Assembly (NCBI GenBank): GCA_900128585.1
Contig: LT642180.1
Location: forward strand, 1-40,821
DNA: 40,821 nt
Source: Stramenopiles sp. TOSAG23-3
Lineage: Eukaryota > Sar
Reading direction: 5' to 3'
The translations under genes were made by a program, and so were the position numbers. Position 1 is the first letter of the stretch, and each line of letters starts with the position of its first letter. The notes under the pieces were generated by a model. It did no database searches. It worked only from the letters and a program-made list of their open reading frames with translations, and had not been told where the DNA came from. Of this stretch, positions 5,559 to 33,542 are shown in pieces.

Positions 5559-5628
5559 TCTGACATTAAAAAATAAATTGGCTGTTATTTAAGTAGTTAA
5601 ATTTTATCGTCAGACATGTCTGACATTA
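5559..5628 (-). mobile_element. Short insertion with 10-bp flanking direct repeats (M element copy 1)
   Basis: TCTGACATTA occurs at 5559-5568 and again at 5619-5628. The 50 bp between them contain the complement of the dispersed element core, AAATTGGCTGTTATTT at 5575-5590. This looks like an insertion with a target-site duplication in the 136-bp gap between convergent genes. Confidence 0.6.
5609..5624. repeat. Perfect 16-bp palindrome
   Basis: GTCAGACATGTCTGAC is its own reverse complement. It lies 16 bp beyond the stop codon of the minus-strand GH18 gene and overlaps the right-hand direct repeat of the neighbouring insertion. It could form a small hairpin in either 3' UTR. Confidence 0.75.
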
Positions 5629-5639
5629 CCGTGCTTCAT

Positions 5640-6749
5640 TTACAATTCGGTATGGCTGTTGACCCAGTCTTCGGCGCGATAGCGCTTTATGCGCTTGCTT
5701 TTCTCAAGGCTTTTCGTGATTGCCACGAGAAGAGAGTCACTGTCTTTTTGGCATGTCCGTTGATGGGTTGTATCCTCACGGGGCACAGGCTTTAACCTAC
5801 AGTCTTGTCCAATCTCCCAAATCATCAATCCACCGATGCCTTTCTCCAGTGCCATAATGGATTTCTTTACAATCGTTTCGACACTATTAAAGCCAATATT
5901 ATTCACAATATCGACCCCAGGCTTCAATGGTGAATGCTTGTGTAGAATGTCTTCATACGTTGTCCATTCACCTCGCCCGTCTCTTCCGTAAAAGGGCACA
6001 CCAAGGGTCAACTTGGCAGCGGGCAAGCCAATCTCAATCCCCTGGTCAACAGATTTTTCCGCAAAGGCATAGCTAGAGTGCTGCGCTCCATGTTGATCGT
6101 ACGTCATCATATGCATAAAATCTGCATATTTATGTGCATTTAACGTTTTAAATAGATTTTCTTGTCTACCGTCCGGGTAGTACGCAAGCGTGATCTCCAG
6201 GCGGCGACCAGAGGTTGCATCTTTGGAATACTCGTCAAACACTGCCCTGGTTTCCTTTAACAAACTGAGAAGGCCCTGGTAATCTTTATCGACAACGTCT
6301 GTGTCAGAGTAACCGCTGGAAAAGCTATACCCTGGGTATTCCCAGTTGTAATCCACACCATCAAGGCTGTATTTAACAATATAACCCATTAGTGACGAAA
6401 TGAATTTTTTCCTTGACTTTCGGGACGATACCATTCCCGAAAAGCCAGCCGACCTCCCGTTTCCACCGAAGCACAATAGGATTTTTGAGCCGTGTCTACG
6501 GGCGGCAGTAGTAGCCTCTCCCATCAACTCCTTTCTAGGAAACCTGTCCCTTGCCGTTATTTTACCGCTAGACGTCATTTCCAAGGAAAATAAGATAATA
6601 TGGCTGACATGCCGAGACACGACATCCCAATTTACCGCTTCATACCTCCATTCTGGCAAATACCCAAAAATCCTGAACGAAGAAGCCTCCAGCGCAGACA
6701 CAGAAATGGCAAGCAAACTATTCAACAAAAATATCAAACGGGCGCGCAT
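5640..6749 (-). CDS. GH18 chitinase-like protein, probably ER-resident
   Basis: Encodes 369 residues of the glycoside hydrolase 18 fold, the family of chitinases, endo-N-acetylglucosaminidases and inactive lectin-like relatives. Residues 1-20 are a likely signal peptide (RLIFLLNSLLAISVSA). The body runs from GYLPEWRYEAVNW through KILLCFGGNG, the active-site strand at 130-138 (DGVDYNWEY), MHMMTYDQHG and GGLMIWEIGQD. In the DxxDxDxE motif the catalytic Glu137 and the Asp at 130 and 133 are present, but the third Asp is Asn135, so activity may be altered. The last four residues are HTEL, a KDEL-type ending also found on human carboxylesterase 2, which suggests ER retention instead of secretion. 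Start is the ATG complement at 6747-6749, giving the signal peptide. Confidence 0.9.
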   Translation of the reverse strand: MRARLIFLLNSLLAISVSALEASSFRIFGYLPEWRYEAVNWDVVSRHVSHIILFSLEMTSSGKITARDRFPRKELMGEATTAARRHGSKILLCFGGNGRSAGFSGMVSSRKSRKKFISSLMGYIVKYSLDGVDYNWEYPGYSFSSGYSDTDVVDKDYQGLLSLLKETRAVFDEYSKDATSGRRLEITLAYYPDGRQENLFKTLNAHKYADFMHMMTYDQHGAQHSSYAFAEKSVDQGIEIGLPAAKLTLGVPFYGRDGRGEWTTYEDILHKHSPLKPGVDIVNNIGFNSVETIVKKSIMALEKGIGGLMIWEIGQDCRLKPVPREDTTHQRTCQKDSDSLLVAITKSLEKSKRIKRYRAEDWVNSHTEL

Positions 6750-7388
6750 GCTGCTGCTGTTGTGGAAGAAAGCAAAGTTCTCAAAAACAAGAAATTGAAA
6801 AACCGACTAAGCTTGAATTATAAACAATATTCCTCTATACATTGACCACGACGTCATACAGTCATTTGCATGGAAGAGTCTTTTTACAATTCATATACTT
6901 GTACCAACATTCAACCAGAAGAAGAAAGGGAAAAGCGATTTTTCACAATCGCGCGTGGAGAGGAGAAGTAAGAGGTATATAATAATATTAATCGGGTTCG
7001 TCGTCGTTACTACTACTCTCTACCGTAGTTATATATTACCGCAAATATTCCATTATAAGTTATTTATTAGACGACTACTATTTATTATTATAAAAATACT
7101 ACAGACCACCACAGCAGTAACAGCCATGTGGTGATGTGATGATGATGATAATATATTTTGATGATGAATAATTGATTGTTGAAATTGAGAAGATATATTA
7201 TTATTATTTATTATTTATTATTTATTAGACGACTAAAATCAATCTTATTAAATCTGTCCTACGAGATCAAAATTCAACAAAGAATGATAAATAAAATGCT
7301 GCGAGTCAGTTTTCTCTGATTCCTGTGTAGATTAAATATTTTTCTCAGGGAAAAGCACATCGCGGCAGATTTTAGAGCTCTTGCGCCA
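6750..7388. other. AT-rich divergent gap
   Basis: Shared upstream region of the GH18 (-) and 2OG oxygenase (+) genes. It holds (TTA)n/(TTAT)n runs near 7200-7226, GAT repeats near 7138-7170, and two copies of TTTATTAGACGACTA, at about 7062-7076 and 7221-7235. A splice-acceptor-like TTTTTCTCAG lies near 7350, so a 5' UTR intron is possible. No coding signal is seen. Confidence 0.6.
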
Positions 7389-8345
7389 ATGGAAATCAAT
7401 TTGCCTGTAATTGATCTTCGCTTGGAAGATTCGGAGGTGGCTAAGAGCCTTGGCCTCGCGTGCTCAGAGAGTGGATTCTTTGTCGTCACCAATCATGGCG
7501 TGCCTCCTGAGCTGATGAAAGGAGTTTATCGGTGTATGGTGGATTTCTTCTCCTTAAGTGAAGAACAAAAGTTTACTGCCCTCGTAAATAGCAGTAACCG
7601 TGGATTTACGCCTTTCAAGGAAGAGAAGCTGGACGTTGAAAACCAGACGACTGGGGATACCAAGGAAGGATATTACATTGGGAGGTCAGTTTCGTCGGAA
7701 GAAGTACGAAAGTTTCCACACCCCCTTCAGGGAGAGAATGTGTGGCCCGATGAGGAAAAGTTAGGATTAAAGAAGTGGAGGGAGACAATGGGGAAATATT
7801 TTGAACAAATGCACGTATTAGGAATGAAATTGCTACGCTTGGTGTCCATGAGCCTGAACTTGTCGGAAGACTATTTCAACGAATCGTTTACGCGTCCCAT
7901 GGAGACTTTACGCCTTTTGAAGTATGGTCCAGACCAGAGTGTTCCCGATGCAGGCGTCTTTGGATGCGGTGCCCATACAGATTACGGCATGTTGACGTTG
8001 CTGTCAACGGACAGCATCCCAGGTCTGCAAATTTACGACAGCAGGAAGGAACAATGGATCAGCGTCGTCCCCAGACCAAGCGATTTTATCGTCAATATTG
8101 GGGACATGCTGGCGCGTTGGACAAATTTCAAATACAAAAGTACCCTTCACCGTGTCGTTAATGTATCAGGAAAGGAGCGGTACTCCATTCCATTCTTTTT
8201 TGAGCCAAACTTTGAGGCAGTAGTCACATGCTTACCCTCCGTGCTTGGGGAGGACGAGGTGGCGGTGCACCCTCCCGTAATTTTCGGAGAACATCTCTTA
8301 AAAAAATTAACGTCTACCCACGACTTGCTCAGCGAAAAGTCCTGA
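7389..8345 (+). CDS. 2-oxoglutarate/Fe(II)-dependent dioxygenase, IPNS-like
   Basis: Encodes 318 residues of the isopenicillin-N-synthase-like 2OG-Fe(II) oxygenase superfamily. The N-terminal half has the DIOX_N pattern (INLPVIDLR, then ACSESGFFVVTNHGVP). The double-stranded beta-helix core carries the iron triad His196 and Asp198 (GAHTDYGMLTLL) and His254 (STLHRV). The 2OG-binding RxS pair is Arg264/Ser266 (RYSIPFF). All expected metal and co-substrate residues are present, so it should be an active soluble oxygenase. The substrate cannot be told; close relatives hydroxylate or desaturate small molecules. Length is normal for the family. Start ATG 7389 lies just before the conserved LPVIDL segment. 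Confidence 0.93.
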   Translation: MEINLPVIDLRLEDSEVAKSLGLACSESGFFVVTNHGVPPELMKGVYRCMVDFFSLSEEQKFTALVNSSNRGFTPFKEEKLDVENQTTGDTKEGYYIGRSVSSEEVRKFPHPLQGENVWPDEEKLGLKKWRETMGKYFEQMHVLGMKLLRLVSMSLNLSEDYFNESFTRPMETLRLLKYGPDQSVPDAGVFGCGAHTDYGMLTLLSTDSIPGLQIYDSRKEQWISVVPRPSDFIVNIGDMLARWTNFKYKSTLHRVVNVSGKERYSIPFFFEPNFEAVVTCLPSVLGEDEVAVHPPVIFGEHLLKKLTSTHDLLSEKS

Positions 8346-8625
8346 TGATTTATGCTGCAGCGGCGAGGGATGTTGTTGCGCATATTTCATGTGTTTACTG
8401 CAACCAGTGTACGAATTATTGGTTTTGGTACAAGATCGTACGATTCTTACGATACGCTAAAATGTAGTCCTGTTTATATCATGCTAGAGTAAATGGTGGT
8501 GGTGTTTCTTAAAGCAATTATTGATTTTGAGAATTCATGTGGCCCTCAATATTCTTACGCATCATATTGTTTTGTTTTAAATTTATTTTAGTGCTCTCAA
8601 GTACACACACATCATTTTTTAAAAT

Positions 8626-8721
8626 CAAGAAAATTGGCTGTTATTTAAAGTAATTTATAAAATTAAAACAAGAAGAAAATTGGCTGTTATTTAAAAACAA
8701 AAAAATAATTGGCTGTTATTT
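8626..8721 (-). repeat. Three tandem M element copies
   Basis: Three copies of the M core in reverse orientation, at 8626-8646, 8669-8692 and 8707-8721, spaced about 40 bp apart. All share ATTGGCTGTTATTT; the first two also keep the CAAGA(AGA)AA segment. TTTAAA-type sequences flank the first two. Confidence 0.85.
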
Positions 8722-8729
8722 CAGCAATT

Positions 8730-8801
8730 AAAAAAAACAAATTATATAGTATGTTTTATAACAGCCAATTTTCTTGTTTTTGTTTTAAGACTCTCATTTT
8801 A
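8730..8801 (+). mobile_element. M element copy inside a second repeat, with empty site elsewhere
   Basis: The forward M copy at 8758-8781 interrupts a sequence that is present without it at 33352-33394. The left flank (8730-8753) matches 33352-33375 and the right flank (8783-8801) matches 33376-33394, each with about one mismatch. About 29 bp are extra here. Confidence 0.7.
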
Positions 8802-8809
8802 AATCAATT

Positions 8810-8888
8810 GTGTACTTTTAAGACCAATCAATTGGAATCTTGACCAGAACTTGGGGAGGATCTGCAATAGGAGGAGACATTGTTCTTA
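8810..8888 (-). repeat. Dispersed repeat R1, copy A, with 20-codon frame
   Basis: The 57 bases at 8810-8866 are identical to 28783-28839, and similarity continues to about 8888. On the minus strand an ATG at 8880 opens a frame ending at TAA 8818-8820. Its last 14 residues, DPPQVLVKIPIDWS, are shared with copy B. It could be a short peptide, the last exon of a spliced gene, or a relic of a mobile gene. Confidence 0.75.
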
Positions 8889-9022
8889 TTAGATTTTAAG
8901 TAATAAAAAAAATTATCTTTCCTCATGCACCGCGTAATTTAATCTCCACAAAAAAAAGTTATTTTTTGTCTTTGAATTACACCCCGACAAATTGCATCTT
9001 TATAATCGAGCACAAGGCCACC

Positions 9023-10603
9023 CTACCCTCTCCCCGTACGGTACCCTACTCTCGGCTGCCCTCTCCAATTTGCGGAGGCTTTCCTCCCCAATGGCATTTT
9101 TTTCTTCTTCCCTTGGTACCCTCTATTGCGACCGTTTTGTACAGACGTTGTAGGCGAAACAATTTGCTTTGGGGCAGCTGCGGCTTGGATTTTCCCCATT
9201 TGCTGTTGGTACTGGTGTTGGTTGTTAAATACCACAGGCACAAACGGCTCTATCGTGCTGGTCAGTTGGTCTATTTTTTCGCTCATCACGTTCAACTCAT
9301 TTAAGAATACATAAAACATTCGACCATCTCTTTTCTTGTGCTTAAGAATGCTGCAAGCCATCTCAAGGGCTGTAAGGGCGCGCTGACGCTCCGCTCGTGC
9401 CTGTGATAGTTCGTGCACCAGCCGACCATTTTGCTTCTCTTTGTAGGCGACAGATTGCTCTACTTTGATCCGATGTTTCATATTCCGTAGATTGGCCTGT
9501 TTCTCCTTTATTTCTGATACTGCGGCACTCCAAGCGTCCATTGTGGCACGATTGTCCTTCAGTTCATCGTTCATCTTTTTCAAAAGCCCGCGCTTTTTTC
9601 TACTCGCCCCTTTTTCATTTGCAATCTTTATTCTCAAAAATTCAAGGCTTTTCTCCAGCTCCATCAGTTCAGCCACGGACGCCTCGTCTGCGACTTCCTC
9701 CACGGGAATGTCGCCCACCGAAATTTCTTCGATCGGTTCAGGTTCTGGAAATTTTCCGAACTGAATATAGTGCGACTGGGGCTTTGCTGCCGTTCTAGAC
9801 CCTTTCCCTTCAAGGTTCGACCGGCGCGGTCTTGTCATCGCCATCAGTTTGCTCCGCCCTCCAGCAAGCTCGGGCGCGTCGATATGAATTACAACAGACT
9901 TTTTTCTATGTTGAGGGGTATGTTGGGGGCGTTTTTTCGGGGGCGTTCGTTTCACTTTCCTTTGCAACGAGGGACTAAGCTTGCTTTTGCCTTTGCTTTC
10001 GGGTTCTGCACGCGGTTTTAATAGCTTCTTTTCCTCCCTGTTCAATCTGGCGTGTGGAATTTTAGTTTGCTTCTTATGTACAGGAGAGTTTTTACGGTTG
10101 CTGCGCCCTCGATATAGTGCTTGAATTTTGGTTGCTGCGTTCTCCGATTCTACCCATTGCTGAATTCTGTCGTTGTCCTCTTTTAGTTTTCTTTGCGTTT
10201 CCCGCTCGTTTCTCCCCCTTAACCTGGCCTGTATTTTGACAACTGCCGCGCCCTGCTCTTGTAGCAATTTTCTCTCTTTCGCATGATTCGCAGCATTTCT
10301 ACCTTTCTTTCCTCGTTGCAGTGCTTGAATCTTCAATGCCGCCTGCTTTCTCTGCTCGAGTTCAAGTCTGTTTTTTTCTATCATCTCGTTGAACGCTGGA
10401 TCCTCCTCTTCACTTACATCGTCCATTAGGTCTAAATCATACGGCGCGTCTATACCCTCGTCGTCCAAGTCATCAAAATCAAAATTGTCGTTTTCAACGG
10501 CCTCTGCCCCTTGATCGTAATTTTCCACCAGCCCTTCATCCAACTCCAGGGTCCATCCTTCTTCATCACTCGAAACGAGGTTCGTTGAATCATAATCACT
10601 CAT
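9023..10603 (-). CDS. IQ-motif coiled-coil protein
   Basis: Encodes 526 residues. Residues 1-75 are strongly acidic (Asp/Glu). Three IQ motifs that bind calmodulin or centrin-type light chains follow: ALKIQALQRGKKGR near 90-105, VVKIQARLRGRNER near 121-135 and ATKIQALYRGRSNR near 157-171. The section ~175-260 is Lys/Arg/Pro-rich and disordered. A charged coiled coil covers roughly 300-460 (for example LEFLRIKIANEKG). The C terminus is basic and Gly-rich. The build suggests a calcium-regulated cytoskeletal or flagellar scaffold, but no specific family was recognised. Start is the ATG complement at 10601-10603. It converges on the 2OG oxygenase gene. Confidence 0.85.
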   Translation of the reverse strand: MSDYDSTNLVSSDEEGWTLELDEGLVENYDQGAEAVENDNFDFDDLDDEGIDAPYDLDLMDDVSEEEDPAFNEMIEKNRLELEQRKQAALKIQALQRGKKGRNAANHAKERKLLQEQGAAVVKIQARLRGRNERETQRKLKEDNDRIQQWVESENAATKIQALYRGRSNRKNSPVHKKQTKIPHARLNREEKKLLKPRAEPESKGKSKLSPSLQRKVKRTPPKKRPQHTPQHRKKSVVIHIDAPELAGGRSKLMAMTRPRRSNLEGKGSRTAAKPQSHYIQFGKFPEPEPIEEISVGDIPVEEVADEASVAELMELEKSLEFLRIKIANEKGASRKKRGLLKKMNDELKDNRATMDAWSAAVSEIKEKQANLRNMKHRIKVEQSVAYKEKQNGRLVHELSQARAERQRALTALEMACSILKHKKRDGRMFYVFLNELNVMSEKIDQLTSTIEPFVPVVFNNQHQYQQQMGKIQAAAAPKQIVSPTTSVQNGRNRGYQGKKKKMPLGRKASANWRGQPRVGYRTGRG

Positions 10604-11477
10604 GCTGTACCAAGGAACACGAGGCTCTTATGCAGAACGACCACGCGCACACTTTCGTGTTTGCAGTAAATGTAAATGAAAACAAAATCATCATTACATG
10701 AATAATTCAACCTTTGATTATAAAATATTACAAACCTTATATAGAAATATAAATTCACTCAAATATTTTTCGTTGTGCTTGGTATACTTGGTATAGTAGT
10801 TGTATATATATTTAAATACAAAAGTAACGGGTAGAAATAGACACACTATCTATTAATTATAAATAAATAAATAACGAGTCAGGAGTCAGGAGTCAAGCCG
10901 CCACATTATATCTTAGTTAAGAAGAAGAAGAACAAATCTATTTTTAAATTCTCTTTTTTTTTGCTTAAATATTATAGTAGTGCCACTTATTGGCACTTAT
11001 AGGCACTTAAGACTAGTTATATAATAATTAGACTAGACTAATTTCCGAGTCGTCTTCTCTTTAAATGTTTCTTTCCTTCTTTTTGTTCTTGTCAACGATA
11101 TTGTTTCCATAGTGCCCTTTGATAAAGGTGTATATTGTACAGTACTTGTATAATCATTTCATTATTCTAAATAATGAGTATTCCTATCTAATCTATATAT
11201 TTCTTTTTTTTAAATTTTATTTAGTCCTCGTATAATAATAATAATACTTCTTCTTTTTTTTTTATAATAATATTATAATTCATATTATAATATTATTTTT
11301 CAATAATAATTATAAAAAAAAAATTGTTGATTCTTGTTGTTTTTGACTTTTCTTTGTTGGTGAACTTTTCTTATTCGACAATAAGTAAAAATGCATCGCG
11401 CGTTTTGTGTATAATGATTATCCTCAAATAATTTGTCACGTTTTAAACCACTGTCATCCCTGTGTCGTGATTGAATC
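10604..11477. other. AT-rich divergent gap
   Basis: Shared upstream region of the IQ gene (-) and ankyrin gene (+). It contains a 7-bp direct repeat near 10880, a GTGCC/GGCAC hairpin with an extra GGCACTTA copy near 10980-11010, and ATA/TAA runs from 11230 to 11330. No coding signal is seen. Confidence 0.6.
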
Positions 11478-12431
11478 ATGGGAAATAGTGCACCAGGGGC
11501 AGGTTTGCTCCGTGCCGTGGAAGATGGCAACTTAGTGGAAGTAAGAAAATGTCTTGGGTCAGGTGGCACGGTCAACGTGAACGAGTCTCGAAATAAGTAT
11601 GGGAAGTCAGCGTTAGAAATTGCCGTGGCAGCTCGTGATGGCGCATTAGTAGACTGTTTGCTGGCTGCTGGTGCAAACCCAGGTGTGTCAAACTCGTACA
11701 ACAACACGCCTTTGCACACTGCGGCGGGTTCCGGCGAAACTGTTATTGTAGACTTGCTGTTGAAGTACAAGGCACACCCGAGCGTGGTTAATATGGACGG
11801 AATGACACCATTGGATTGTTGCCTTCACTGGGAAAGATCCCAGCCAGCGCGCGCAACGAGCTGGCAGCAAATGCGTTGCGCTGCTATTCTACTGGCCTAC
11901 GGCGGGTACGCAGTAAAGTTTTCGTCGGGAAACCCCAACGCCGCTGCTACCGCGGTTCCCATCGGGGATGGCGCAAAGCTGACGTCGGGTGTGGCGACTA
12001 CCGTCCCAGTATCGGTCGATATCGTCCCCGTCGTCAACGCCGTTCCTGTTGATTTTGCCACGTTACTAGCTGTCCCTAGTTACTACAACCAGCACATACC
12101 TGGGACAGGGGTCCCAGTTGTCAAGGTAGAAGCGAGTGGCGCACAGATCAGCACTCAGTGGACCGCTTTGTTGAATCGATTTTCAAGTTGCACCGACGCA
12201 GAAGCACTGTTCACATGTTTGCAAGAGATTTCTGCAGTGTTACAATCCTCTTTAGCTAGCGACGGCAATGCTGCGGATCGCGAATTTTTGATTTCTCAGA
12301 AGCCTCACTTTATAGCCATCGGAACCTATAAATTTACAGGTTCCCCTCAAATTTGGAGTGCACAAGTAGCACAGTTGTACTCAAAAGTCTGCTGTCAATT
12401 TCAATTCCAGGCAGCATATTATAAAAATTAA
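11478..12431 (+). CDS. Ankyrin-repeat protein
   Basis: Encodes 317 residues. Ankyrin repeats fill roughly residues 5-150: a degenerate first repeat (LLRAVEDGNLVEVRKCL), YGKSALEIAVAARDGALVDCLLAAGAN, YNNTPLHTAAGSGETVIVDLLLKYKA with the classic TPLH tetrapeptide, and DGMTPLDCC. The rest (150-317) is Ala/Val-rich and then helical, with no domain I recognise. Ankyrin repeats mediate protein contacts, so the partner is unknown. The N terminus MGNSAPG has Gly2, but Pro6 argues against N-myristoylation. The gene is followed on the same strand by the Sec66-like gene after about 1 kb, so they are separate transcription units. Confidence 0.88.
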   Translation: MGNSAPGAGLLRAVEDGNLVEVRKCLGSGGTVNVNESRNKYGKSALEIAVAARDGALVDCLLAAGANPGVSNSYNNTPLHTAAGSGETVIVDLLLKYKAHPSVVNMDGMTPLDCCLHWERSQPARATSWQQMRCAAILLAYGGYAVKFSSGNPNAAATAVPIGDGAKLTSGVATTVPVSVDIVPVVNAVPVDFATLLAVPSYYNQHIPGTGVPVVKVEASGAQISTQWTALLNRFSSCTDAEALFTCLQEISAVLQSSLASDGNAADREFLISQKPHFIAIGTYKFTGSPQIWSAQVAQLYSKVCCQFQFQAAYYKN

Positions 12432-13441
12432 TACTAATATTTTGTACTATTAATGAACATATTCCTATTCATAAAATCAATCGAAACATCACGCACAAAT
12501 ATACTATACACACAATATTGAAACTATTCACCCAATTCCTTATTTTCTTCTTTTATTTTTCCTATATCTATAATACTATACATTTCAGTATTCTATTCAT
12601 TTTATTTTTCGCTATTTTTCCAAGAGAAGAGAGAGGAGAAGAGAAGAAAAAGAAAAAGAGGAAAGAAAGAAAAGAAAGACGAACAAAAAAAGAAAGAAAG
12701 AATAATGATTAATAAAATAATACAGTAATAATAGAAGAAGAAGAAGAAGAAAAAAACATTGAAGGAAGGAAAGAAAGAAGACACTCTCTACTCTACAGTC
12801 TTCTACATTATAACATATACACAGGATAGAAAAAAGCATCGCCACCACCAATCCCTTTTATATAGCTATAGTGAGGAGACATAATTCTCGGCCTTTGATT
12901 GACACAGCTCCAACTCTCATCTCTCAACTGTGGCACTACGTAAGCGTAAGCTCACACAGTATACACAAAAGTATAGCTAAATAGACCAGACCACTTTATT
13001 ATATTTTTTTATAATGATGATGTTAGTTGTGTGTTTATATAATAATTTAATTAAATAATACCACCACCAGGTATATAACATACACAGAGCACCAAGATAA
13101 TGGATAATAATAATAAAAAAATCATCATCATTAATTTATTTTATTATTTGTTTTGTTGTTTGTTGAGCGAATTATTTCTTTCATTTTAGTTTAGTTTAAA
13201 TCAGCAGGACGACCGGGGTTCACTTCCACTACACCACTATGACACACTTTTGATTTATAAATTTGATTGCCTTGCGTACATTCCAGATGGATTGCTAATT
13301 ATATTGTCACGCACAAACACTTTTGAATTTTGAGTTGGTAAACATCGTTCCCCACGACGCAGCTATTACACCTACGGCAAGTTGCAAAGGTCAGTTTTCT
13401 CCATTACCCCCCTGCAACACGTTGACGTTCGATCGGGCACC
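12432..13441. other. Tandem gap with GAA/AAG purine tract
   Basis: Lies between two plus-strand genes. A purine-rich tract of AGA, GAAA and AAG repeats spans about 12622-12780. The rest is AT-rich with short TAA and ATA runs. A GC-richer leader starts near 13320 before the Sec66-like start. A GGGGTTCACTTCC string at 13216 resembles a tRNA B box, but the flanks do not fold as a T arm. Confidence 0.6.
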
Positions 13442-14281: not shown

Positions 14282-14760
14282 ACCTGCAGGTAAACACAGC
14301 ACACTGTTGTCGTTTAGTCGCACTACATTTGTTCACGAGGAGGGAAAATTTTCTAAATTTAACTTAAGTTTTAAAAGGTTTTGTCAGTTTAATGATTCAA
14401 CGTATACTCCGTTGCTCTTTTCAAGTTAAGAAGAAAGAGAAACATTTTAGATATTAATTCAAATTTGTTTTTTTATAATTCAAATTTAAGTCCCTCGATA
14501 TTGAAAAAACACTCTCTGTGGGTTGATTTGAAATGCGTTCTGCCTCTCCGTACGAAAAGTGAACCAAGTACTTAGTAGTTGTTAGTATCATAAATCTTAA
14601 ATAACAGCCAATTTTTCGGTGCTAAATTTTTTGTGTTTCAATTGATATCTGAAATTTAAATTAACTTTATATCTCAAAATAGTTATACACACAAGCCGAA
14701 AACGAATTCCCCCTGCTCCAGCAAGGCAACAAGTCTCTCATCTCATTCTGATAAACTTGA
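14282..14760. other. Convergent gap with one M element
   Basis: Between the Sec66-like gene and the minus-strand membrane protein gene. It is AT-rich, with one forward M copy at 14599-14617. No other structure is obvious. Confidence 0.6.
14599..14617 (+). repeat. M element copy, single
   Basis: AAATAACAGCCAATTTTT matches the first part of the M core; the CTTG end is replaced by CGG. I found no clear flanking direct repeat, so this copy is probably older. Confidence 0.7.
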
Positions 14761-16181: not shown

Positions 16182-16511
16182 TTACTCTGATGGGTGGAAC
16201 ATTCCTTTGAACTGGCTGTTTTGGAACTGCGTGAGTTTCAAGTATTGGTCCATATCTACCTCGTTCCAGGGGGTGTTTTTGAATTCCTGAACTTCTGCAG
16301 CTCCAGTTGCACGGCCAACAATTTCCACGTACGGGGAGTCATACGAACCGCCTCCACCTTGGGCTCGCACGATATTAATCGTGGTGCCATCTGCTGCTTG
16401 AACCTGCGCGTTCGACCCGTCGTCACTGAGGACCTTCCCCATCAATATGACACTTTTTCCGCTGTGTTGTTGGACATCGCTTCCACTTAGTCTTGGCATG
16501 TATCCTTCCAT
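16182..16511 (-). CDS. RPA3: Replication protein A small subunit (RPA14/RPA3)
   Basis: Encodes 109 residues, close to the 121 of human RPA3. The OB-fold pattern is clear: a start with MPRLSGSDVQQHSGKSVILMGKV, the middle QVQAADGTTINIV, and the diagnostic SPYVEIVGRATG followed by the C-terminal helix DMDQYLKLTQFQ that packs against RPA2. RPA3 is the small subunit of the heterotrimer that coats single-stranded DNA in replication and repair in the nucleus. The start is the ATG complement at 16509-16511. A (TC)n microsatellite lies about 25 bp upstream of the start, so it is likely in the 5' UTR or core promoter. Confidence 0.92.
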   Translation of the reverse strand: MEGYMPRLSGSDVQQHSGKSVILMGKVLSDDGSNAQVQAADGTTINIVRAQGGGGSYDSPYVEIVGRATGAAEVQEFKNTPWNEVDMDQYLKLTQFQNSQFKGMFHPSE

Positions 16512-24361: not shown

Positions 24362-24504
24362 AGTGGCGGAGAAAATATTTCTTTTTTTAAATATTCTTAC
24401 TACGAACGTACGAATTCTAGAATGTTTTTAATTCTATATGAATAATTGTAAAAAAAGGAGATGGAGGCCGGCGTAACTACGAATGAGTTCAGTGCGTGGA
24501 AATT

Positions 24505-25533: not shown

Positions 25534-26363
25534 TCTTTCAATTGTAAAGACCCTTGCCTCAATTAATTATTTGAAATATTATCCACTCCTCAGTTTCACC
25601 TTCTTTTCTTTGCTCTAACGACATTTACTTGTGTATTGAATAAGAAAAGATTTTCTAATCAACTTTTATTATATAATATCTTCTTTTCCTCAACAATTAA
25701 TCATCCTCCATATTTCATAATAATAATAATGTAATATCTATCTCATTATTCATCATCATCACAAAAAAAAAGAAAGAAGGTAATGCTGTACGGTAGTATT
25801 ACAAGAAGAAAGGAGAAAAAAAAATATAATAATAATTATCACCACATACTCCTCGTATTATAATGTACATTATTACATCATACAGAAGAATGACAATGGC
25901 AAAACAATAAAATAATTATTTCTAATAAAAAAATACGACGACACAGCATTCCAAAACCCCACGCACCATCATAATTTTACACAGAACGAGGAGACCAATT
26001 AAATGAGAACAAAGAATGAGGAGGAGAGGAGGACATCAGAGAGTTTTTAAAATGGACAGAGCAAAGAAGGATTTTTCAAAACTCATCATCAAGAAGAAAG
26101 AAAAAACACTCTTTCTTTCTTCTCCTCCAGCAGTACCAAGGTAGAATAATAATATCCTTTTAAACAAAAGTTATTATAATATCCATTAATAGAGAGAGAC
26201 AACACATGCTGCTTGTTAATACTCTTTACATTCTCTACAAGACACGCGCAGGATTTCTAGCTTAAACCTGGTTGACAGCCTTTGCATCTTCTGTTGCGTT
26301 GCTGTCTTCCCAGAAACGTTTAGAGTTCGAACTACGCACGTGCTGTTGTATTGAAATTGTACC
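25534..26363. other. AT-rich divergent gap
   Basis: Shared upstream region of the helical protein (-) and the MyTH4-FERM gene (+). It holds purine tracts (AAAGAAAGAAGG near 25768, GAGGAGAGGAGGA near 26018), TTTCTT runs near 26108 and AT-rich sequence. No gene is seen. Confidence 0.6.
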
Positions 26364-28742
26364 ATGGGAAACGTCGAGGCGGGCTGCTGTGCAGCCAACC
26401 GGGAAAAACCCAAAGGGAAGCTGAAACCTGGAGATATGGAAAAAGCAATTAAAAACTTTCAAAAAGATCTTTTGAAGGAGTGGAAAGCCACAAACAGAAA
26501 CTCGCACCGGTTTATTTACAAAAAAAACCTGGCTGGTAATATTTGGCCGGAGATTGCATGGGGTTTTATACAACACCAAGCCGGGCTGAACCCGAATTTC
26601 AAAAGAGCTGTGGAGGGCTTGGCATTACGGCCCAATTACCGTACAGTCTATGATCGAAAAATAATGACAGTATCGGAGTTATTGACAGTATTAAATACCA
26701 TCCAGGCCATGTTCATCATAGACAAAGGCAGGTTCAATGGCAAGAACGACACGAATATATTGAATCTTGACTCCGATGTTACCCTGAAATTTCTGGCAAA
26801 TAGTGAAATACTGACGAACTTTGCGATGCTGAATTTTGAAGACTTCGTGCTGAAGCAGTACGGAGATACTGAAAAGAAGTGGTGGAAGATAAATGCAAAA
26901 ATAAAGGACAATCTTCTGAAGGCAACTTCCAAGACGTACCCAGACTGTGGTTCTATACTTTCGGCGAAAATTGAAAAGTTTTTGAAGGCAAGAGACGAGG
27001 ACTACCCTGGCGTGTGCATTGAATTTTTGAATTTCTTGTATTGGAATAAAGATGACTCGACCTGCATCGATGAAGCATACTGCCAGCTGCTCCTTTCTGC
27101 CTCACGCACCACATCTTACAGCGACGGCCAGTTGACGAGAATATGGCGATGCCTTCAACTGTTAGCGCGGTGCCTTGCACCGAAGGAGGAATTAGGACGT
27201 GTGATAATTTCCTGGAGCAAAGAGCTATTGACAATAATGACGGAGCATGCGGGGTATGATTTGCGCGGCGTTATCCCTGAGTTGATCAAGCTATTTTTAG
27301 AAAATTTTCGTTCAGTTTTAAAGTCCGGTTCAAGGACATATTTTCCGTGCACTAATGAAATTGCGACACAGCTCCTGAATGCTGGGCAGCAATCACCACG
27401 ATCGTCTCATATAATGATGCGGCTTTGGTTCAAGAGCGGAGAAACCATTCTTCTGGACATTCCAGACCCGCACTGGACAGCACAGAACGTCATAGACCAC
27501 ATATTGGGCGCTATTGGAATATCGCCAGAAGCTGGACCACTTTTTCACCTTCATTTGATAGGCACAAAAGGCAAGGAGACAAAAGATCAGACCTATACCT
27601 GCGACCTGCCACGAACCGAGTTGTCCTTCAAGCTGCCAGAGGATTATTCAACGGCGCCCGGAACAATTAACGGAAGTGGCTTACCTGAGGACAAGGCCTT
27701 TCTCCACATGTCCAGCAATTCCGATTTTGTGAATGTTCCGTTTCTTCGTCAAAAAGAGCACAGCAAGATTTATAAAAGGTTTGAGTCTCAATTTGGCTTC
27801 ACAAACAACATGGTACAAGGCAGCAATTTCGTGTCTCAGGACGAACAAGGCACAGCATGCAAGCCTTTTGCTCTGGTCGGCGATACTGTCCATCGTACAC
27901 GCACCCTGGACAATGGTGATGTAATTTTGGACTTTCTTGGATACTGCGAAACCATTGAAACCAGCAGGATCAACCCCGACTTTTCGATGCACATTAGCTT
28001 GGAATCGTCAGTTGCGTTAATATTCGACAGAGAGAACGAGGACGAAGTTCGGTTTAAGTTCAACGAAACATTGTGGGATATAATATCTGGGCGATATAAT
28101 TTAGAGATGACAGACGTTGATGCTGTTAGTTTAGCAGCAGTGGCGCTTGTTGCCAAACTTGGACCCTTAAGTTCAATAACCCAACATATTCGAAACAAAA
28201 CAAATCAGGACGACGTCGACATCGAGTCAATACTGTGGAAACAGATCAACATCAATTTGTTCGTACCGAAACCTAAAATCGAGGCTGTAAAGGCAGATAC
28301 AAAAATCGTGATTTCGTGCATAAAAGGCTTGCAGAGAGCGACGAAGCACGAAGCCCGCTTGCTGTACTGGGACTTTTGTGTTAGTAAGTTTTTCCTTTTT
28401 GGTGCCCGTATGTTTACCCTGGACAATATTGAGATAGAAAAAGTCTTCGGGAACCGGGGAAGAGAAATTGCAGGAGACACCAAAAGCAACGTTATGGCAA
28501 TTAGCAAATCTGGTATTATTTTGATAGATGTGGCAAGTGGTTCCATCAGCTACAAGTTTACATATGCGCACATAACGTTTTACGAGGTGGATGGAAATGT
28601 GCTTCGATTTCAGCACAAAATCCTTGATCAAAAGGAGGCACAGAGTAGGTCTTTTTCGCTCAAAGGCCAAGGTCTAGGTCACGCGTTCACACTGTTAGAC
28701 ATGTACTGGAAGAATAGTAATTTAAAGGAAGGCCCGGGCTAG
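26364..28742 (+). CDS. Motor-less MyTH4-FERM protein with acylated N terminus
   Basis: Encodes 792 residues. The start MGNVEAGCC fits N-myristoylation (Gly2, Ala6) with palmitoylatable Cys8/Cys9, so it should bind membrane. Residues ~25-150 are helical and unassigned. A MyTH4 domain lies at about 155-335, with the hallmark DEAYCQLL at 236-243 followed by IWRCLQLLARCLAP. A FERM module follows: F1 from about 355 (MMRLWFKSGETILLDIPD), F2 about 450-660 (KALVGDTVHRTR region and ALVAKLGPL), F3 about 670-780 (GIILIDVASGSISYKFTYAHI). MyTH4-FERM tandems bind microtubules and cargo tails in myosins VII/X/XV and kinesins, but here no motor domain is present and the ATG at 26364 begins the acylation signal, so the protein is complete. 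It is likely a membrane-cytoskeleton linker. Confidence 0.88.
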   Translation: MGNVEAGCCAANREKPKGKLKPGDMEKAIKNFQKDLLKEWKATNRNSHRFIYKKNLAGNIWPEIAWGFIQHQAGLNPNFKRAVEGLALRPNYRTVYDRKIMTVSELLTVLNTIQAMFIIDKGRFNGKNDTNILNLDSDVTLKFLANSEILTNFAMLNFEDFVLKQYGDTEKKWWKINAKIKDNLLKATSKTYPDCGSILSAKIEKFLKARDEDYPGVCIEFLNFLYWNKDDSTCIDEAYCQLLLSASRTTSYSDGQLTRIWRCLQLLARCLAPKEELGRVIISWSKELLTIMTEHAGYDLRGVIPELIKLFLENFRSVLKSGSRTYFPCTNEIATQLLNAGQQSPRSSHIMMRLWFKSGETILLDIPDPHWTAQNVIDHILGAIGISPEAGPLFHLHLIGTKGKETKDQTYTCDLPRTELSFKLPEDYSTAPGTINGSGLPEDKAFLHMSSNSDFVNVPFLRQKEHSKIYKRFESQFGFTNNMVQGSNFVSQDEQGTACKPFALVGDTVHRTRTLDNGDVILDFLGYCETIETSRINPDFSMHISLESSVALIFDRENEDEVRFKFNETLWDIISGRYNLEMTDVDAVSLAAVALVAKLGPLSSITQHIRNKTNQDDVDIESILWKQININLFVPKPKIEAVKADTKIVISCIKGLQRATKHEARLLYWDFCVSKFFLFGARMFTLDNIEIEKVFGNRGREIAGDTKSNVMAISKSGIILIDVASGSISYKFTYAHITFYEVDGNVLRFQHKILDQKEAQSRSFSLKGQGLGHAFTLLDMYWKNSNLKEGPG

Positions 28743-28782
28743 AAACGCGATGATCTCACATTGATTTAATAATGACACAAGA

Positions 28783-28866
28783 GTGTACTTTTAAGACCAA
28801 TCAATTGGAATCTTGACCAGAACTTGGGGAGGATCTGCAAATAGGAGGTCAGATATTGTTCTTGAA
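28783..28866 (-). repeat. Dispersed repeat R1, copy B
   Basis: Shares 57 identical bases (28783-28839) with copy A at 8810-8866. Beyond that, copy B has two small insertions totalling 3 bases, which keep the minus-strand frame ending DPPQVLVKIPIDWS and TAA. Copy A's ATG is ATA here; the frame stays open for about 37 codons without a start. Confidence 0.75.
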
Positions 28867-28905
28867 CTGAGACACCTTCTTTTTTCTTTACTTTTATTAG
28901 AATCA

Positions 28906-29016
28906 ATTTAAGAATTAAATTAATTTACTTAAATAACAGCCAATTTTCTTGTTTTTAATTACTATAAAATAACAGCCAATTTTCTTGTTTTATTTTTTTT
29001 TTCTTGTATTTAAGAA
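28906..29016 (+). mobile_element. Two M element copies between 9-bp direct repeats
   Basis: M cores at 28931-28956 and 28967-28990 repeat with a period of about 36 bp, each preceded by a TTAATT(T)ACT-like string. ATTTAAGAA flanks the pair at 28906-28914 and 29008-29016; in AT-rich DNA that could be chance. Confidence 0.5.
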
Positions 29017-29024
29017 GCAATTCA

Positions 29025-29078
29025 TTATTCTCACTCGTTAAATAACAGCCAATTTTCTTGTTTTTATTCTCACTCGTT
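29025..29078 (+). mobile_element. M element with 13-15 bp target-site duplication
   Basis: ATTCTCACTCGTT at 29027-29039 is repeated exactly at 29066-29078, and the match extends two T's to the left. Between them lie only 26 bp (29040-29065), made of the M core followed by TTTTT. This is the cleanest view of the element: about 26 bp with a duplicated target. Confidence 0.8.
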
Positions 29079-29244
29079 TCCTTCTCATATTTAAGCTAAT
29101 GAACCCAGTACACACTCGTTAACTCTCGGTTGACTCATTTTGAAAAGTTTAACATTTTTTACGCCGTAGCTTAAATTTGGTGGGGTGGTACATTTAACCC
29201 CCCCAAGTGTCTTGTAATGTTCTCTCGCCAAGATTGTGGCGGTA

Positions 29245-30663
29245 CTATCTGCCAGATGACGGAGAAATTTTCTTTTTAGTCGCTCGTCGTTTTACGTGCT
29301 TGCTATTGTTCAAGCTTTTTGCCCTGAGCTGAGCCGGGGAAATAACGACCGCCCCTTGCGGCGTGCCCGTCGGTTTACCGTACTTCATATTCATACGGTT
29401 TTTTGCACTACCACTTCTACTGCCCGATCCATTTCTATCACGATAATCTTGATACACTATCGTTTTTCCAGCGTTTTGCATGTTGCTCTTCTGCCGTCTC
29501 TGGTTTGGACTCTGGCTCTTGGATGATGCTTGCTGATCCTTTGGAGGAACAAAACTTTGTTGCTGATTATAAGCATTGGGGTTTGAATACGGCATCGATG
29601 GGGCTGAAAAAGATTGCGGTGCAGAGTATGGCTGAGGGCTAGGATAGGGCGACATTTGTGAATTTTGACTGACACCTTGCTGACCATAAAAGGACGGTGG
29701 TTGCTGCCAGGCCGATTGCTGGGCTGCTGGCATTTGCTGCTGTGGCTGACCCCAAGTGTTGGGGTTCGGAGTTGCCATGTTGGGTGGATTTTGCTGCCAA
29801 CTGCCATTTTGCTGCGCACTTGGACCGCCGTGCTGTTGTTGTTGCTGCTGCTGCTGCTTCGGGTAAAACGATAACGGGGCCGATGAATTAAAAGCGTTTT
29901 GCGGGGCTTGCATTGGCGGGTTACTCGATTTTGGCGAAAAGTAACCTTGGGGCTGGGGTTGTCTTGGCTTCACGGATGCGGACGCAGACGATGGGGCATT
30001 CTTGGCCCCATTTCCACTGTACGGCGGCGGTTGATTTCCCCAGAAGTTCACCGTTTGCTTTTCCGCCACCACCGGGGCACTGAACGAAGTTCGACCAAGC
30101 GTTTGGCTGTCCCCCAAGGCATCGTTGTAATCGCCAATTATGATCGGAACTTCGTTTCGCGGAGAGCCATGGGAGTTAGCGCGTTGCACGCCGTGGCGAG
30201 GGGGGCGACCATTTGGTTGCCCATAGGCATCAAAACCACTCCCTTTTGACCGACCTTTGGGAGAAAACTGCATGCCGTTGTCTCCCTGAAATCCGACACC
30301 ATCACCATCCCCCGAGACCCCTTGCTGCTTTAATTGAATTGTCTTTGCGACGCGGTCCGCACTGTCCAATGCCCTCCGCGAGCGGGCAACTGCATCCAGC
30401 ACCTCTTGGTGTTGCTCGGGTGGGGTTCGACATCTCCACTCAATCGGCAAAAGTTTCGCTTCCTTTTCTGCATCGGCAGTAATACTTCTTCCATTGCCCC
30501 GCACGCGACCAGATCCATTTCCCTTTCCCCTCTTCCCACTCCCACCCCTGCTATTACGACTCGAACGACGGTCACTGCGGTCACCACTGCTGCTATTGTT
30601 TCGCGAGTTGCTAGCCCTTTCACCGCCCGTCCGCTTCGATGATCCACGCGGGTTTTGTCGCAT
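29245..30663 (-). CDS. RG/Q-rich low-complexity protein, probably RNA-binding
   Basis: Encodes 472 residues from the ATG complement at 30661-30663. Residues 1-65 are rich in Arg, Gly and Ser (RGGSGKRGKGNGSGRVRG), typical of RNA-binding disordered regions. A short ordered stretch follows (LLPIEWRCRTPPEQHQEVLDAVARSRRALD). The middle and C-terminal parts are Gln/Pro/Ser/Asn-rich with an eight-residue Gln run (genome 29831-29855) and many QP and SP pairs, resembling prion-like proteins of RNP granules. The last 20 residues are basic. No catalytic domain is seen; a role in mRNP assembly is inference. The frame extends 23 codons upstream without an ATG. Confidence 0.75.
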   Translation of the reverse strand: MRQNPRGSSKRTGGERASNSRNNSSSGDRSDRRSSRNSRGGSGKRGKGNGSGRVRGNGRSITADAEKEAKLLPIEWRCRTPPEQHQEVLDAVARSRRALDSADRVAKTIQLKQQGVSGDGDGVGFQGDNGMQFSPKGRSKGSGFDAYGQPNGRPPRHGVQRANSHGSPRNEVPIIIGDYNDALGDSQTLGRTSFSAPVVAEKQTVNFWGNQPPPYSGNGAKNAPSSASASVKPRQPQPQGYFSPKSSNPPMQAPQNAFNSSAPLSFYPKQQQQQQQQHGGPSAQQNGSWQQNPPNMATPNPNTWGQPQQQMPAAQQSAWQQPPSFYGQQGVSQNSQMSPYPSPQPYSAPQSFSAPSMPYSNPNAYNQQQSFVPPKDQQASSKSQSPNQRRQKSNMQNAGKTIVYQDYRDRNGSGSRSGSAKNRMNMKYGKPTGTPQGAVVISPAQLRAKSLNNSKHVKRRATKKKISPSSGR

Positions 30664-32090
30664 GATACCGTGTGGTTTATTGTTCTTCCTCAAAAACTGC
30701 CACAGAATTCTTACCAATCTAATTCTTAACACTTCCCTCTACCATTCGCGTAAGTCTTTCATCCCTTTATCCTTGCCCCATAGATTCTTCGTTCATGCAC
30801 AGTGTCGACGTCCATCACAATCAATAAAAGAACGAAACTAGAGCTTCTTCGAGTGCGGATGATATTATAGATACTGTGTTTATGTTAAAATTTAATAGAG
30901 AGAGGATCATTATTATTACAATTATTAATATTACAGCATGATAAATTCGTTACATTAGTATGATTTTATGACTTAGTAAGTGCATAAATATTTATTTTAA
31001 ACTACATCCTTTTAATTGTACTAAGAGTTAATCACGATTCTTCTGCTTTACGTTTAAATATGAATTGTACTAAAATATCTAATTAGATATAATACGTAGA
31101 CGATAAACGACGGCTTGACAAAGAAATGAAAAAAAAAGAGATAGGGGTCCCCCCTTCATTTGCCTGTACCTGGTACCTGTGCCTGTACTGTGTAAATTAT
31201 ATATTTATTTTTTCTTCTTCTGATCGGTTACAAATAGATCTTTTATTTATAGAATTTATTCTATTGTATTCTATCGTTCCTATTAATTACTATGATTTTG
31301 TTTTTCGTTCAAGTTGACAACGCTGTGTGTATATATATATTACTCTGTGGTTTGTTCGGTTCTGTTGATAAAAATTGTTTCAATTTTGTGAATATATCAG
31401 CTATTTATTAACCCTATTTTTAAACATGCATACAATTCTATTATCTCGAGAAGAATCTTCTTTTCTCAAAAAAAAATAATAATAATAATAGAGTTTTATC
31501 CGTTCACCCCATCCAAATGCTGTACCTATGTAAAATGTAAACGAATTAAATTGACACTTATCTCTCCTCGTATTCCGATTATTAGCTGACGACAGTGCTG
31601 TGCTGCCTGCCTCTTCTATCTACCTAAAAAAACAACCCTTCTTTCCTTCTTGTTTTGCTTCTCTTTTTTTTTCTTTTGTTGAGCTCTTCTTCTTCTTTCT
31701 TCTTCTTCTATTATATTATTTTTTTATTCTTTCTTCCTCCACATTCCATCATAATTTTATTATAATTATCATCTCTTTCAACAAATTTCACGCTTAATAT
31801 AATATCTTGAATATAATAAAAAATGGTGCATTACAATCATGGAAGGTTTTCTAGTTGTGGTTTGTCATTACGAAAAACTTAGAAAGCTTAAGTAAGTGGT
31901 GCATTGACAGTAAAAAAGGTTATTTTTAATTTGTATCGCTGTTGTTCTTTCGTGCAAGGTTGCAGAGAGTTTCTAAGCGACCCACTTCACACTTGCGCCC
32001 AGGTAGTTGCGAGAGTGCGACATCGTTTCCTCCTCTCGCGAACGTGAACGGAAGAGTGCGCTTTTGGAGAGTATTTAGAATAGTATCAAA
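30664..32090. other. Longest divergent gap, no gene seen
   Basis: Shared upstream region of the RG/Q-rich gene (-) and the basic-protein gene (+). It is AT-rich throughout to about 31930, with TTC tracts near 31685-31710 and ATA runs near 31475-31490. The final 150 bases before the plus-strand start are GC-richer and probably the transcribed leader. I see no RNA gene. Confidence 0.6.
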
Positions 32091-33185
32091 ATGCGTATGT
32101 CTGCCCCAAAAAAGAACGGGAGGCCGGAAGATATTATCACGGATCGTGCAGGTGGGTTGGACCTGTACAAGGAATCAGAGTCAACAAAGTGGAGGCATAT
32201 GATAAAGAAAGATGCCGCTATTGATTTGAATAACATTCGGTCTCACATTCGTAGGTTCCGAAACACTCAGCTGATCTCTGATTCGGATTTGTTGATTCAC
32301 GATGCAACTTTATCAAAACCAGCAGCGATGAACGAAGCAGTTTTGGCAGGTGGCAAAGACGCCAAAGTTTTCCCAAAACTTGGGTTAGGTCCAGTAATCC
32401 CAAAGTCTATCAATGCACTAACCCCAGAAGAATTTGAAAAGACCAAAAACTCAATTGGGGGGATTAAAGTAGTCAAAGGCGACAAAATTTCTCAAAAACA
32501 CTTGAAGGCTCGCCTGAAGCGTATGGAAAAAACGCTCAAAATAGTCAGAAAGGAAAGAAAACTGGCAGAAAATGAGCTTAATGGTCTCCAACGTCATTTA
32601 AACTTGCCCATGTCGCCTTCTGCGAACATTTCAGCACCGCCTTCTGGGAGAATAGAAGTTGGGAAAAAGGGAAACATGAATAAAAGTATTAGCACTCCAC
32701 AACTGACAGGAAGATCAAACGCTTTATCAATTACGTCTGCTAGGAAACAAATAATGTCAGCCAGATCAAATGTTTCCAGACGCTCCAACACACCAAATGC
32801 TTCAAACCGTTCGCGACGCTCTTCAAAGAGCAAGCCTCAATACAAAGAGGTAAAGGTTTGGAATAAGAGAACCAAGGTGTGGGAGCCGAAAAAGAGAAAG
32901 ATGGGAAAGTTTGGTTTGCCAGATACTTCAGAATCTTTTCGTAGCCAAAACATCGGGAATCTTTTCATTTCTCCAGATTCTAGGGGAATGACCACCACGA
33001 ATCAAATTGGACTAGTTGCTATTACCGATCTGATCAGACGTGGAGTCGTCGATCCGAACTTGTACTTAAAAATTGACATGCACCAGAAAGACTCTCGGTG
33101 CCCGAAGATTATGTCGCCGATAACAAAGTTTGCAGAACATGCAGTCAGAAATAGATTAAAACCTTTTGCGCTTGGAAGAGGGTAG
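32091..33185 (+). CDS. Basic protein with coiled coil, unknown family
   Basis: Encodes 364 residues. The N-terminal 60 residues (RPEDIITDRAGGLDLYKESESTKWRHMIKKDAAIDLNNIRSH) look conserved and helical. A coiled coil runs at about 135-170 (KARLKRMEKTLKIVRKERKLAENELNGLQ). Residues ~180-260 are Ser/Arg-rich and disordered (RSNVSRRSNTPNASNRSRRSS). The C-terminal ~100 residues contain KVWNKRTKVWEPKKRK and an ordered end (GLVAITDLIRRGVVDPNLYLKIDM). Strong positive charge and the absence of catalytic motifs suggest microtubule or nucleic-acid binding. No family was recognised. Start ATG 32091; a second ATG is at 32097. Confidence 0.75.
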   Translation: MRMSAPKKNGRPEDIITDRAGGLDLYKESESTKWRHMIKKDAAIDLNNIRSHIRRFRNTQLISDSDLLIHDATLSKPAAMNEAVLAGGKDAKVFPKLGLGPVIPKSINALTPEEFEKTKNSIGGIKVVKGDKISQKHLKARLKRMEKTLKIVRKERKLAENELNGLQRHLNLPMSPSANISAPPSGRIEVGKKGNMNKSISTPQLTGRSNALSITSARKQIMSARSNVSRRSNTPNASNRSRRSSKSKPQYKEVKVWNKRTKVWEPKKRKMGKFGLPDTSESFRSQNIGNLFISPDSRGMTTTNQIGLVAITDLIRRGVVDPNLYLKIDMHQKDSRCPKIMSPITKFAEHAVRNRLKPFALGRG

Positions 33186-33535
33186 GCAAACATTATTGAA
33201 TGCAACAAGCGTAGAACGAAAAAGATCTCTATGCAAAAAACAGTTTTTCTAAAATGCATCATGATATACCATCTAAATCTAATATAATTTCGGAAAAAAA
33301 ACAAGTTTTATATGATATCATATAAGTATGTACGTTTTACTGAGAGATATGAAAAAAAACAAATTATATTGTATGCTTTAAGACTCTCATTTTATATTAG
33401 CATTAGTTTTTTTATATAATATGTTTTTTCTTCATATGTTTTCTATAAACTTCTAAAATTCCGTCTCGTTCCAAATATAAACCTACGGATATAACAGCCA
33501 ATTTTCTTGTTTTTATAATTTGTTTTTTTTTAAAC
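33186..33535. other. Convergent gap with M element and R2 empty site
   Basis: Between the basic-protein and MATCAP-like genes. It contains the M copy at 33490-33514 and the R2 sequence at 33352-33394 that lacks an M insertion. The rest is AT-rich. Confidence 0.65.
33352..33394. repeat. R2 repeat, uninterrupted copy (empty site)
   Basis: Matches the two flanks of the M element at 8758-8781 with about two mismatches over 43 bp, but has no M sequence between GTATG and CTTTAAGACTC. Confidence 0.7.
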
Positions 33536-33542
33536 CTACGGA
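33478..33542 (+). mobile_element. M element with 12-bp target-site duplication
   Basis: TAAACCTACGGA at 33478-33489 is repeated exactly at 33531-33542. The 41 bp between begin with the M core (33490-33514) and end in an AT filler with a T run. The right-hand duplicate contains the stop codon (33536-33538) and last Pro codon of the MATCAP-like gene, so the insertion landed directly at the gene's end. Confidence 0.8.

Follow-up and report, generated by a model that had tools for sequence, protein, structure and literature searches.

A short dispersed sequence of convergent gene gaps in a stramenopile genome as the probable 3' tail of a LINE-like retrotransposon family

INTRODUCTION

Mammalian L1 leaves severely 5'-truncated copies that are anchored by their tail and flanked by target-site duplications, and short interspersed nuclear elements (SINEs) can carry the same 3' tail as a partner long interspersed nuclear element (LINE). 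In compact genomes, retrotransposons such as yeast Ty and Dictyostelium TRE insert in safe sites. We have analyzed a 40,821-nt stretch of Stramenopiles sp. TOSAG23-3 (GenBank LT642180.1, positions 1 to 40,821; hereafter the window), which is contig C440 of a 660-contig, 12.88-Mb assembly (GCA_900128585.1) that is fragmented and partly N. The window holds ten copies of a very short sequence with a 20-mer core, here called M. We consider it likely that M forms the 3' terminus, or tail, of a family of non-long-terminal-repeat, LINE-like retrotransposons, probably of the restriction-like-endonuclease type. Extreme 5' truncation best accounts for its short copies of ~25 bases.

Like the restriction-like-endonuclease LINEs (R2, NeSL, CRE, and Utopia), M has a fixed 3' end, 5' truncation, and variable target duplications. 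Unlike them, it is not limited to one repeated target gene, and many of its copies comprise only the last ~25 nt. Truncated mammalian L1 copies are likewise tail-anchored and duplication-flanked, but the M tail ends in T instead of poly(A), and the length retained is often a matter of tens of bases. M also resembles SINEs with a partner-LINE tail in that several distinct 5' parts (A, B, C, and D) precede one common 3' tail. Unlike SINEs, M copies carry no head recognizable by Rfam, and the 5' parts may be 3' untranslated region variants of a single LINE family. As with Ty and TRE, the copies sit where genes are unharmed, although this is in convergent gaps and not at tRNA genes or in silent chromatin, and any targeting of M is putative.

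RESULTS AND DISCUSSION

Copies of M share a 3' end and differ in their 5' extent

The initial annotation of the window, made from the sequence alone, had listed ten M copies. All of them were recovered with 0 to 3 mismatches to the 20-mer core (Table 1), and none appeared in 100 shuffles of the window. The whole-genome core search that it had proposed returned 804 copies in the assembly at up to 2 mismatches, equally divided between the strands (400/404), with 0 for the reversed control. At the same threshold, the window is rich in M, with 7 copies vs. ~2.5 expected from 804 per 12.88 Mb.

We have aligned 104 copies, after dropping those less than 80 nt from a locus end and identical duplicates. 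The aligned copies have a common 3' end, AATAACAGCCAATTTTCTTG followed by a T-run. By score, 51 of the 104 have a longer shared 5' arm, 22 are intermediate, and 31 are clearly without one, the arm lengths being spread from 13 nt up. The 5' sequence thins with distance, from 804 M cores to 312 genome places that match a version of M extended by nine 5' nt, and then to 139 places that match the peptide of an open reading frame (ORF) C-terminal end, as which some of the 5' parts read. The copies are 5'-truncated, many of them down to 22–28 bp. The initial annotation had taken M for an unusually small insertion sequence, perhaps copied from a small RNA. That view gave way, with M being the common 3' terminus of longer sequences, some of which end an ORF, and the description was incomplete in that many copies extend 5'.

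A small-RNA source of M was considered and rejected: Rfam gave no match for the window or for ten loci, a search that a diverged SINE head could escape, and four M tail sequences had no advantage over shuffles in folding.

The B-type 5' part carries the telomere-repeat-like TTAGGATTAGGG (L002, L006, L013, L048, and L062). A contig start lies less than 100 nt away in 5 of 100 listed arm-bearing copies (C47:44, C137:46, C139:72, C166:18, and C376:44), which look as if longer element copies had broken the assembly there.

Target-site duplications and an empty site

Direct repeats were scanned at 101 copies, the other three of the aligned set having no 150/40-nt flanks. Exact repeats whose right copy started no more than 12 nt past the core exceeded the swapped-flank control both at a length of at least 10 nt (22 of 101 vs. 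5.9) and at a length of at least 8 nt (56 vs. 27). A stricter scan, limited to repeats of at least 9 nt whose right copy starts inside the T-run or immediately behind it, gave 10 repeats vs. 2.1 in the control for inserts of 15–32 nt, 8 vs. 1.7 for 61–100 nt, and 5 vs. 1.8 for 101–170 nt. The duplications vary in length, with 8–17 nt above the control. The longest clean one around a short insert has 17 nt (L058), and the corresponding one in the window has 15 nt (copy at 29041). No target sequence beyond T/A-richness was found in the repeat-flanked copies.

The insertion of the copy at 8757 comprises 22 nt and is flanked by a duplication of 7 nt. It interrupts a repeat, R3, whose uninterrupted form elsewhere in the window represents a paralogous empty site (Table 1). 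Among the matches listed, the joined flanks of this copy agree with uninterrupted R3 over 53/53 nt in L032 and at 92–96% in L068, L063, L057, and the window, and 158 uninterrupted R3 sites were counted genome-wide at up to 3 mismatches. The initial annotation had proposed that M is mobile on the grounds of duplications and an empty site; both are there (in the window, duplications of 15 and 10 nt by script and of 11 nt by eye), and they support the proposal.

R3 is a second dispersed repeat (GTATGTTTTAAGACTCTCATTTTA and flanks), which adjoins another, R4, at 8805.

In the mechanism that we propose, the element RNA would end in a U-run. The enzyme would nick a T/A-rich site, the exposed A-run would prime on the U-run, and copying would start at M by target-primed reverse transcription. 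Copying would then halt early, often after ~22–28 nt, with closure of the 5' junction at the first AT patch of the tail giving inserts of 22–28 nt, and joining of the complementary DNA end to the other side of the target would leave a variable duplication. The resulting insertions would survive almost solely in promoter-free gaps, that is, between convergent genes. We have compared the left target end with the upstream TTA-rich patch of the tail in 15 short inserts whose repeats reach 8 nt or more. The two agree over at least 2 nt in 8 of these inserts (1.8 by chance), or in 6 of 13 without L001 and L050, which lie in older arms. Judging from these few cases, such microhomology can explain the short class. 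Neighboring M copies no more than 300 nt apart have the same orientation in 33 of 55 pairs, as would follow from the reuse of older T-runs as targets, and 15 of the 55 pairs are head-to-head (palindromic).

A putative parent ORF with some features of restriction-like-endonuclease LINEs

We have then compared the positions of M and of the ORF. Of 25 ORF C-terminal ends, 16 are followed on the same strand by M (up to 5 mismatches) at a distance of 60–300 nt, the nearest copies lying at 79–148 nt. Most of these loci had been selected for holding M, and the other strand and side classes serve as controls: downstream on the opposite strand there were 4, upstream on the same strand 3, and upstream on the opposite strand 5.

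In total, 154 proteins were found, and the alignments took 9, 20, 54, and 11 of them. Relatives in public sequence reach 851 residues (P0046). The 68 matches to P0044, obtained from 60 of 145 candidates scored, overlap its residues 600–744 in 54 cases, 291–580 in 17 (two of these by fewer than 10 residues), and 1–290 in 2. Such upstream thinning is the pattern that target-primed reverse transcription produces by 5' truncation.

The 11-row alignment revealed a cysteine/histidine (C/H) cluster ending in HFIGC, then ADG and WDVHF blocks, plus a KX2KY motif, which is complete in 6 of the 9 rows that cover it, with the first K and the Y present in 9/9. According to PMC5678591, KX2KY is the catalytic lysine site of restriction-like-endonuclease LINEs, and their knuckle has the form CX2-3CX7-8HX4C. 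The C/H cluster followed by the conserved ADG and WDVHF blocks and KX2KY is thus a likeness to these LINEs, whereas the missing reverse transcriptase match, the knuckle spacing (both discussed below), and an ORF that extends more than 150 residues beyond the KX2KY block are differences. The nearest library match, below threshold, was that of zf-primase to the C/H cluster in P0043 and P0044 (E 0.007–0.01). In the second of two structure models, KX2KY falls in a helix (128–151) that follows a strand (117–125), with a local predicted local distance difference test (pLDDT) score of ~60–82 against a model mean of 44.6, so that its placement in the second helix of the nuclease, its position in these LINEs, is only suggested.

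Directly upstream of the longest element copy found lies a 1485-residue ORF that looks, by eye, like a phosphatidylinositol kinase (L075, 3-4460). N runs occupy L025 1-9615, L026 1-2507, L044 1-211, and part of L075, and some of the ORF-tail peptide matches fall within "open frames" that run over thousands of residues, as N runs would produce.

M copies with callable flanking genes lie almost exclusively between convergent genes

The initial annotation had placed all copies in five convergent gaps and had put convergent gaps at about a fifth of the intergenic DNA. Both statements hold: 10/10 copies in the window lie in these five gaps, with 0 in divergent, tandem, or coding sequence, and convergent gaps make up 18–21% of the bounded intergenic bases (gene thresholds of 40 and 25). 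We have extended the comparison by systematic sampling: every 33rd contig from C5 to C632 contributed its first 10 kb, which gave twenty stretches (hereafter the sample). Genes were called with a statistical, hexamer-based caller, by which split genes may appear as tandem pairs. The sample and the window together have 228,699 of 240,821 bases that are not N (the sample holds 12,122 N). Of the sampled sequence, ~70% was called coding (162,741 vs. 70,774 non-coding bases), and N-containing gaps were excluded from per-gap and stop-distance counts.

The sample has 20 copies at up to 3 mismatches. All 12 that lie in gaps bounded on two sides are in convergent gaps, and the other 8 are at stretch ends. 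Counted by gap, M is carried by 8/20 convergent, 0/15 divergent, and 0/29 tandem gaps (Fisher p = 2.8e-5), which makes 8/20 vs. 0/44, and the difference between convergent and tandem gaps has p = 0.00028. When the threshold was relaxed to 5 mismatches, 24 of 35 copies were convergent and 1 was tandem. No M copy was found within called coding sequence in the window or the sample. The flanking genes, whose orientation the initial annotation had suggested tabulating, were also recorded for 46 further M-centered loci with 69 copies (L001-L008 were cut out automatically, and L029-L068 were picked from the first hundred listed places); this tally excludes L005 (which overlaps L004), L006, the non-central copies of L001-L008, and ORFs overlapping the element's own protein. 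The left neighbor was a + gene in 45/45 callable copies and the right neighbor a - gene in 54/57, the exceptions being L001, L003, and L038. The 27 loci classed on both sides comprised 25 convergent, 2 tandem (L001 and L003), and 0 divergent, with 19 others open-sided.

Base composition does not explain this bias, as the gap types hardly differ in AT (divergent 0.684, tandem 0.679, and convergent 0.671). The availability of targets was also tried as its cause and rejected: AT is equal, and TTTTA/TAAAA is 1.4–1.5-fold denser in convergent gaps with M itself included.

Among the reasons for the confinement, we rank selection first and directed insertion second. The confinement probably reflects the loss of insertions near promoters, by which most of the intergenic space seems to be taken (in the sample, the median gap length is 1070 nt for divergent and 327 nt for convergent gaps). 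In 38 M-holding convergent gaps with 62 copies, M lies less than 60 nt from a stop codon in 9 cases vs. 17 expected and more than 250 nt away in 9 vs. 3.5 expected; such scarcity near stops with an excess far away is what tolerance predicts. The repeats R2, R3, and R4 also lean to convergent gaps, suggesting a general tolerance there. Their numbers are small and there are exceptions, with one R2-like match in a divergent gap of the window, another in called coding sequence, and R3 in the sample occurring in 1 convergent and 1 tandem gap. Tandem gaps also have a 3' end and yet hold far fewer copies, so that closeness to a 3' end is insufficient, and either the absence of promoters or convergent transcription itself must matter. 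This disfavors the initial suggestion that insertion is linked to transcript 3' ends alone, and the option offered beside it, that insertions are tolerated only there, would fit better.

In directed integration, the machinery would target convergent gene ends, for example by way of convergent transcription, R-loops, terminator-bound factors, or cohesin, and the bias would arise at insertion instead of survival. We regard this as possible, though on balance unlikely. The near-absolute bias and the complete absence of M from the sampled tandem gaps at up to 3 mismatches speak for it, as does the target-specific insertion that is usual for restriction-like-endonuclease LINEs according to PMC4640811 and PMC5678591. 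Copies whose repeats are intact (e.g., L010, L014, L036, L048, L058, L062, L064, and L067) show the bias as well, most of them being convergent; this is expected from very efficient selection or from targeting alike. The lean of R2, R3, and R4, the distribution of distances to stop codons, a target with nothing beyond T/A-richness, and the existence of tandem placements (L001, and L003 with an 8-nt repeat) argue against it. A bolder proposal, namely that the usual product of the LINE family is a discrete tail-only insertion of ~24 nt, directed to the zone where convergent transcription meets and gradually padding convergent gene pairs, appears doubtful to us. A near-absolute convergent bias would allow targeting and selection to be separated directly in any culturable relative.

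Observations against a LINE tail and other origins of M

Several observations weigh against taking M for a LINE tail. Most copies have no repeat exceeding chance length, and some of the listed repeats are neighboring M copies or arms (L036:391, L053:529, L019:3053, and L001:1532). A T-start was seen in 21 of 25 confident repeats, but it is partly built in, the search beginning in the T-run; if real, it suggests that the RNA U-run is primed by a target A-run and mirrors the A-start that is known for the target duplications of L1. The stricter scan showed no excess for inserts of 33–60 nt (1 vs. 1.7), and from this gap the short class may be discrete. The folding of the four tails, given above, offers no help. 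On the protein side, PF00078 had no match in the assembly, whose N stretches are invisible to the search. This leaves M with no reverse transcriptase linked to it, and Pfam revealed none in P0043-P0046. The C/H cluster of P0044 is spaced CX7CX8HX3C, which is not the knuckle cited above. Sequence searches of Pfam, PHROG, and PDB gave no match by which the parent protein could be named. As regards the PD-(D/E)XK fold of restriction-like-endonuclease LINEs, the ADG and WDVHF blocks are conserved, but the two structure models have low confidence (mean pLDDT 46.7 and 44.6), and Foldseek, run with the first of them, returned no match. With the protein unnamed by the libraries, the models poor, and PF00078 without a match, the LINE reading rests on the anatomy of the copies more than on the enzyme.

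A discrete short class would be compatible with M being an independent unit of ~24 nt, retroposed from its own tiny RNA, which the longer elements share or have captured. The repeat-flanked inserts do cluster at 22–28 nt with the gap just described, and nearly a third of the aligned copies are clearly without an arm. However, longer repeat-bounded inserts end 3' in M as well, arm lengths are spread, M is linked to an ORF, and the microhomology between target and TTA patch can explain the short class, which makes an independent unit improbable.

The initial annotation had also raised the possibility of a 3'-end signal. A functional, bidirectional terminator selected in convergent gaps would agree with the restriction of M to 3'-3' gaps and with the T-run downstream of a conserved core. 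As a required signal it is disfavored by the convergent gaps that have no M (12/20 at up to 3 mismatches and 10/20 at up to 5) and by the lack of any fixed distance from M to the stop codon; moreover, the copies occur in clusters and nested, have flanking repeats, belong to longer transposon sequence, and are equal on the two strands. We hold this explanation to be very improbable. Still less credible is a miniature inverted-repeat transposable element or other DNA-transposon derivative, for which the head-to-head pairs would speak, given flanking repeats that differ in length between copies and so depart from a constant-length duplication, a constant 3' end with a variable 5' end, and the commoner same-orientation neighbors.

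If M is a LINE tail as proposed, repeat finders that ignore sequences below 50 bp would miss what is possibly the commonest LINE product, hundreds of retrocopies of 22–30 bp. The copies would also form a clean natural map of the places at which insertions are tolerated or received in a compact genome, and a system in which to study the limits on reverse-transcriptase processivity and the way in which the 5' junction is closed. A literature search, with most subscription journals outside its scope, found no report of tail-only LINE copies of ~25 bp or of confinement to convergent gaps. We know of no retrocopies smaller than these of ~24 nt.

Features of the window

Table 1. Positions of the M copies and of the R3 and R4 repeats in the window
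Feature	Position	Strand	Details
M copy	5570..5589	-	3 mismatches; direct repeats TCTGACATTA 5559-5568 / 5619-5628 (10 nt, script), insert 50 nt
M copy	8626..8645	-	Core exact
M copy	8672..8691	-	1 mismatch
M copy	8701..8720	-	3 mismatches
R3 repeat	8732..8805	+	Interrupted by the M copy at 8757
M copy	8757..8776	+	Insert 22 nt (8759-8780); duplications TGTTTTA 8752-8758 / 8781-8787; within R3
R4 repeat	8805..8867	+	63 nt, 97% identical to the copy at 28778-28840; the two lie in different convergent gaps
M copy	14600..14619	+	3 mismatches
R4 repeat	28778..28840	+	Upstream of the M copy at 28932 and leads into M; same order in L023
M copy	28932..28951	+	Exact
M copy	28968..28987	+	Exact; 36 nt past the copy at 28932, same orientation
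M copy	29041..29060	+	Exact; 24-nt insert 29040-29063, 15-nt duplications 29025-29039 / 29064-29078 (script)
R3, uninterrupted	33349..33397	+	Paralogous empty site of the copy at 8757; 91.8% over 49 nt
M copy	33490..33509	+	1 mismatch; 11-nt direct repeat AAACCTACGGA 33479-33489 / 33532-33542 (by eye; unscored by script)

A virus or phage origin of M was rejected: the extended M core is absent from IMG/VR, the parent protein P0011 was unconfirmed there, and the ORF of L069 is absent from the phage collection. The proteins encoded in the window are eukaryotic, among them BEACH/FAN, Tsr1, V-ATPase subunit D, GH18, and Sec66, and the size of the assembly points to a microbial host.

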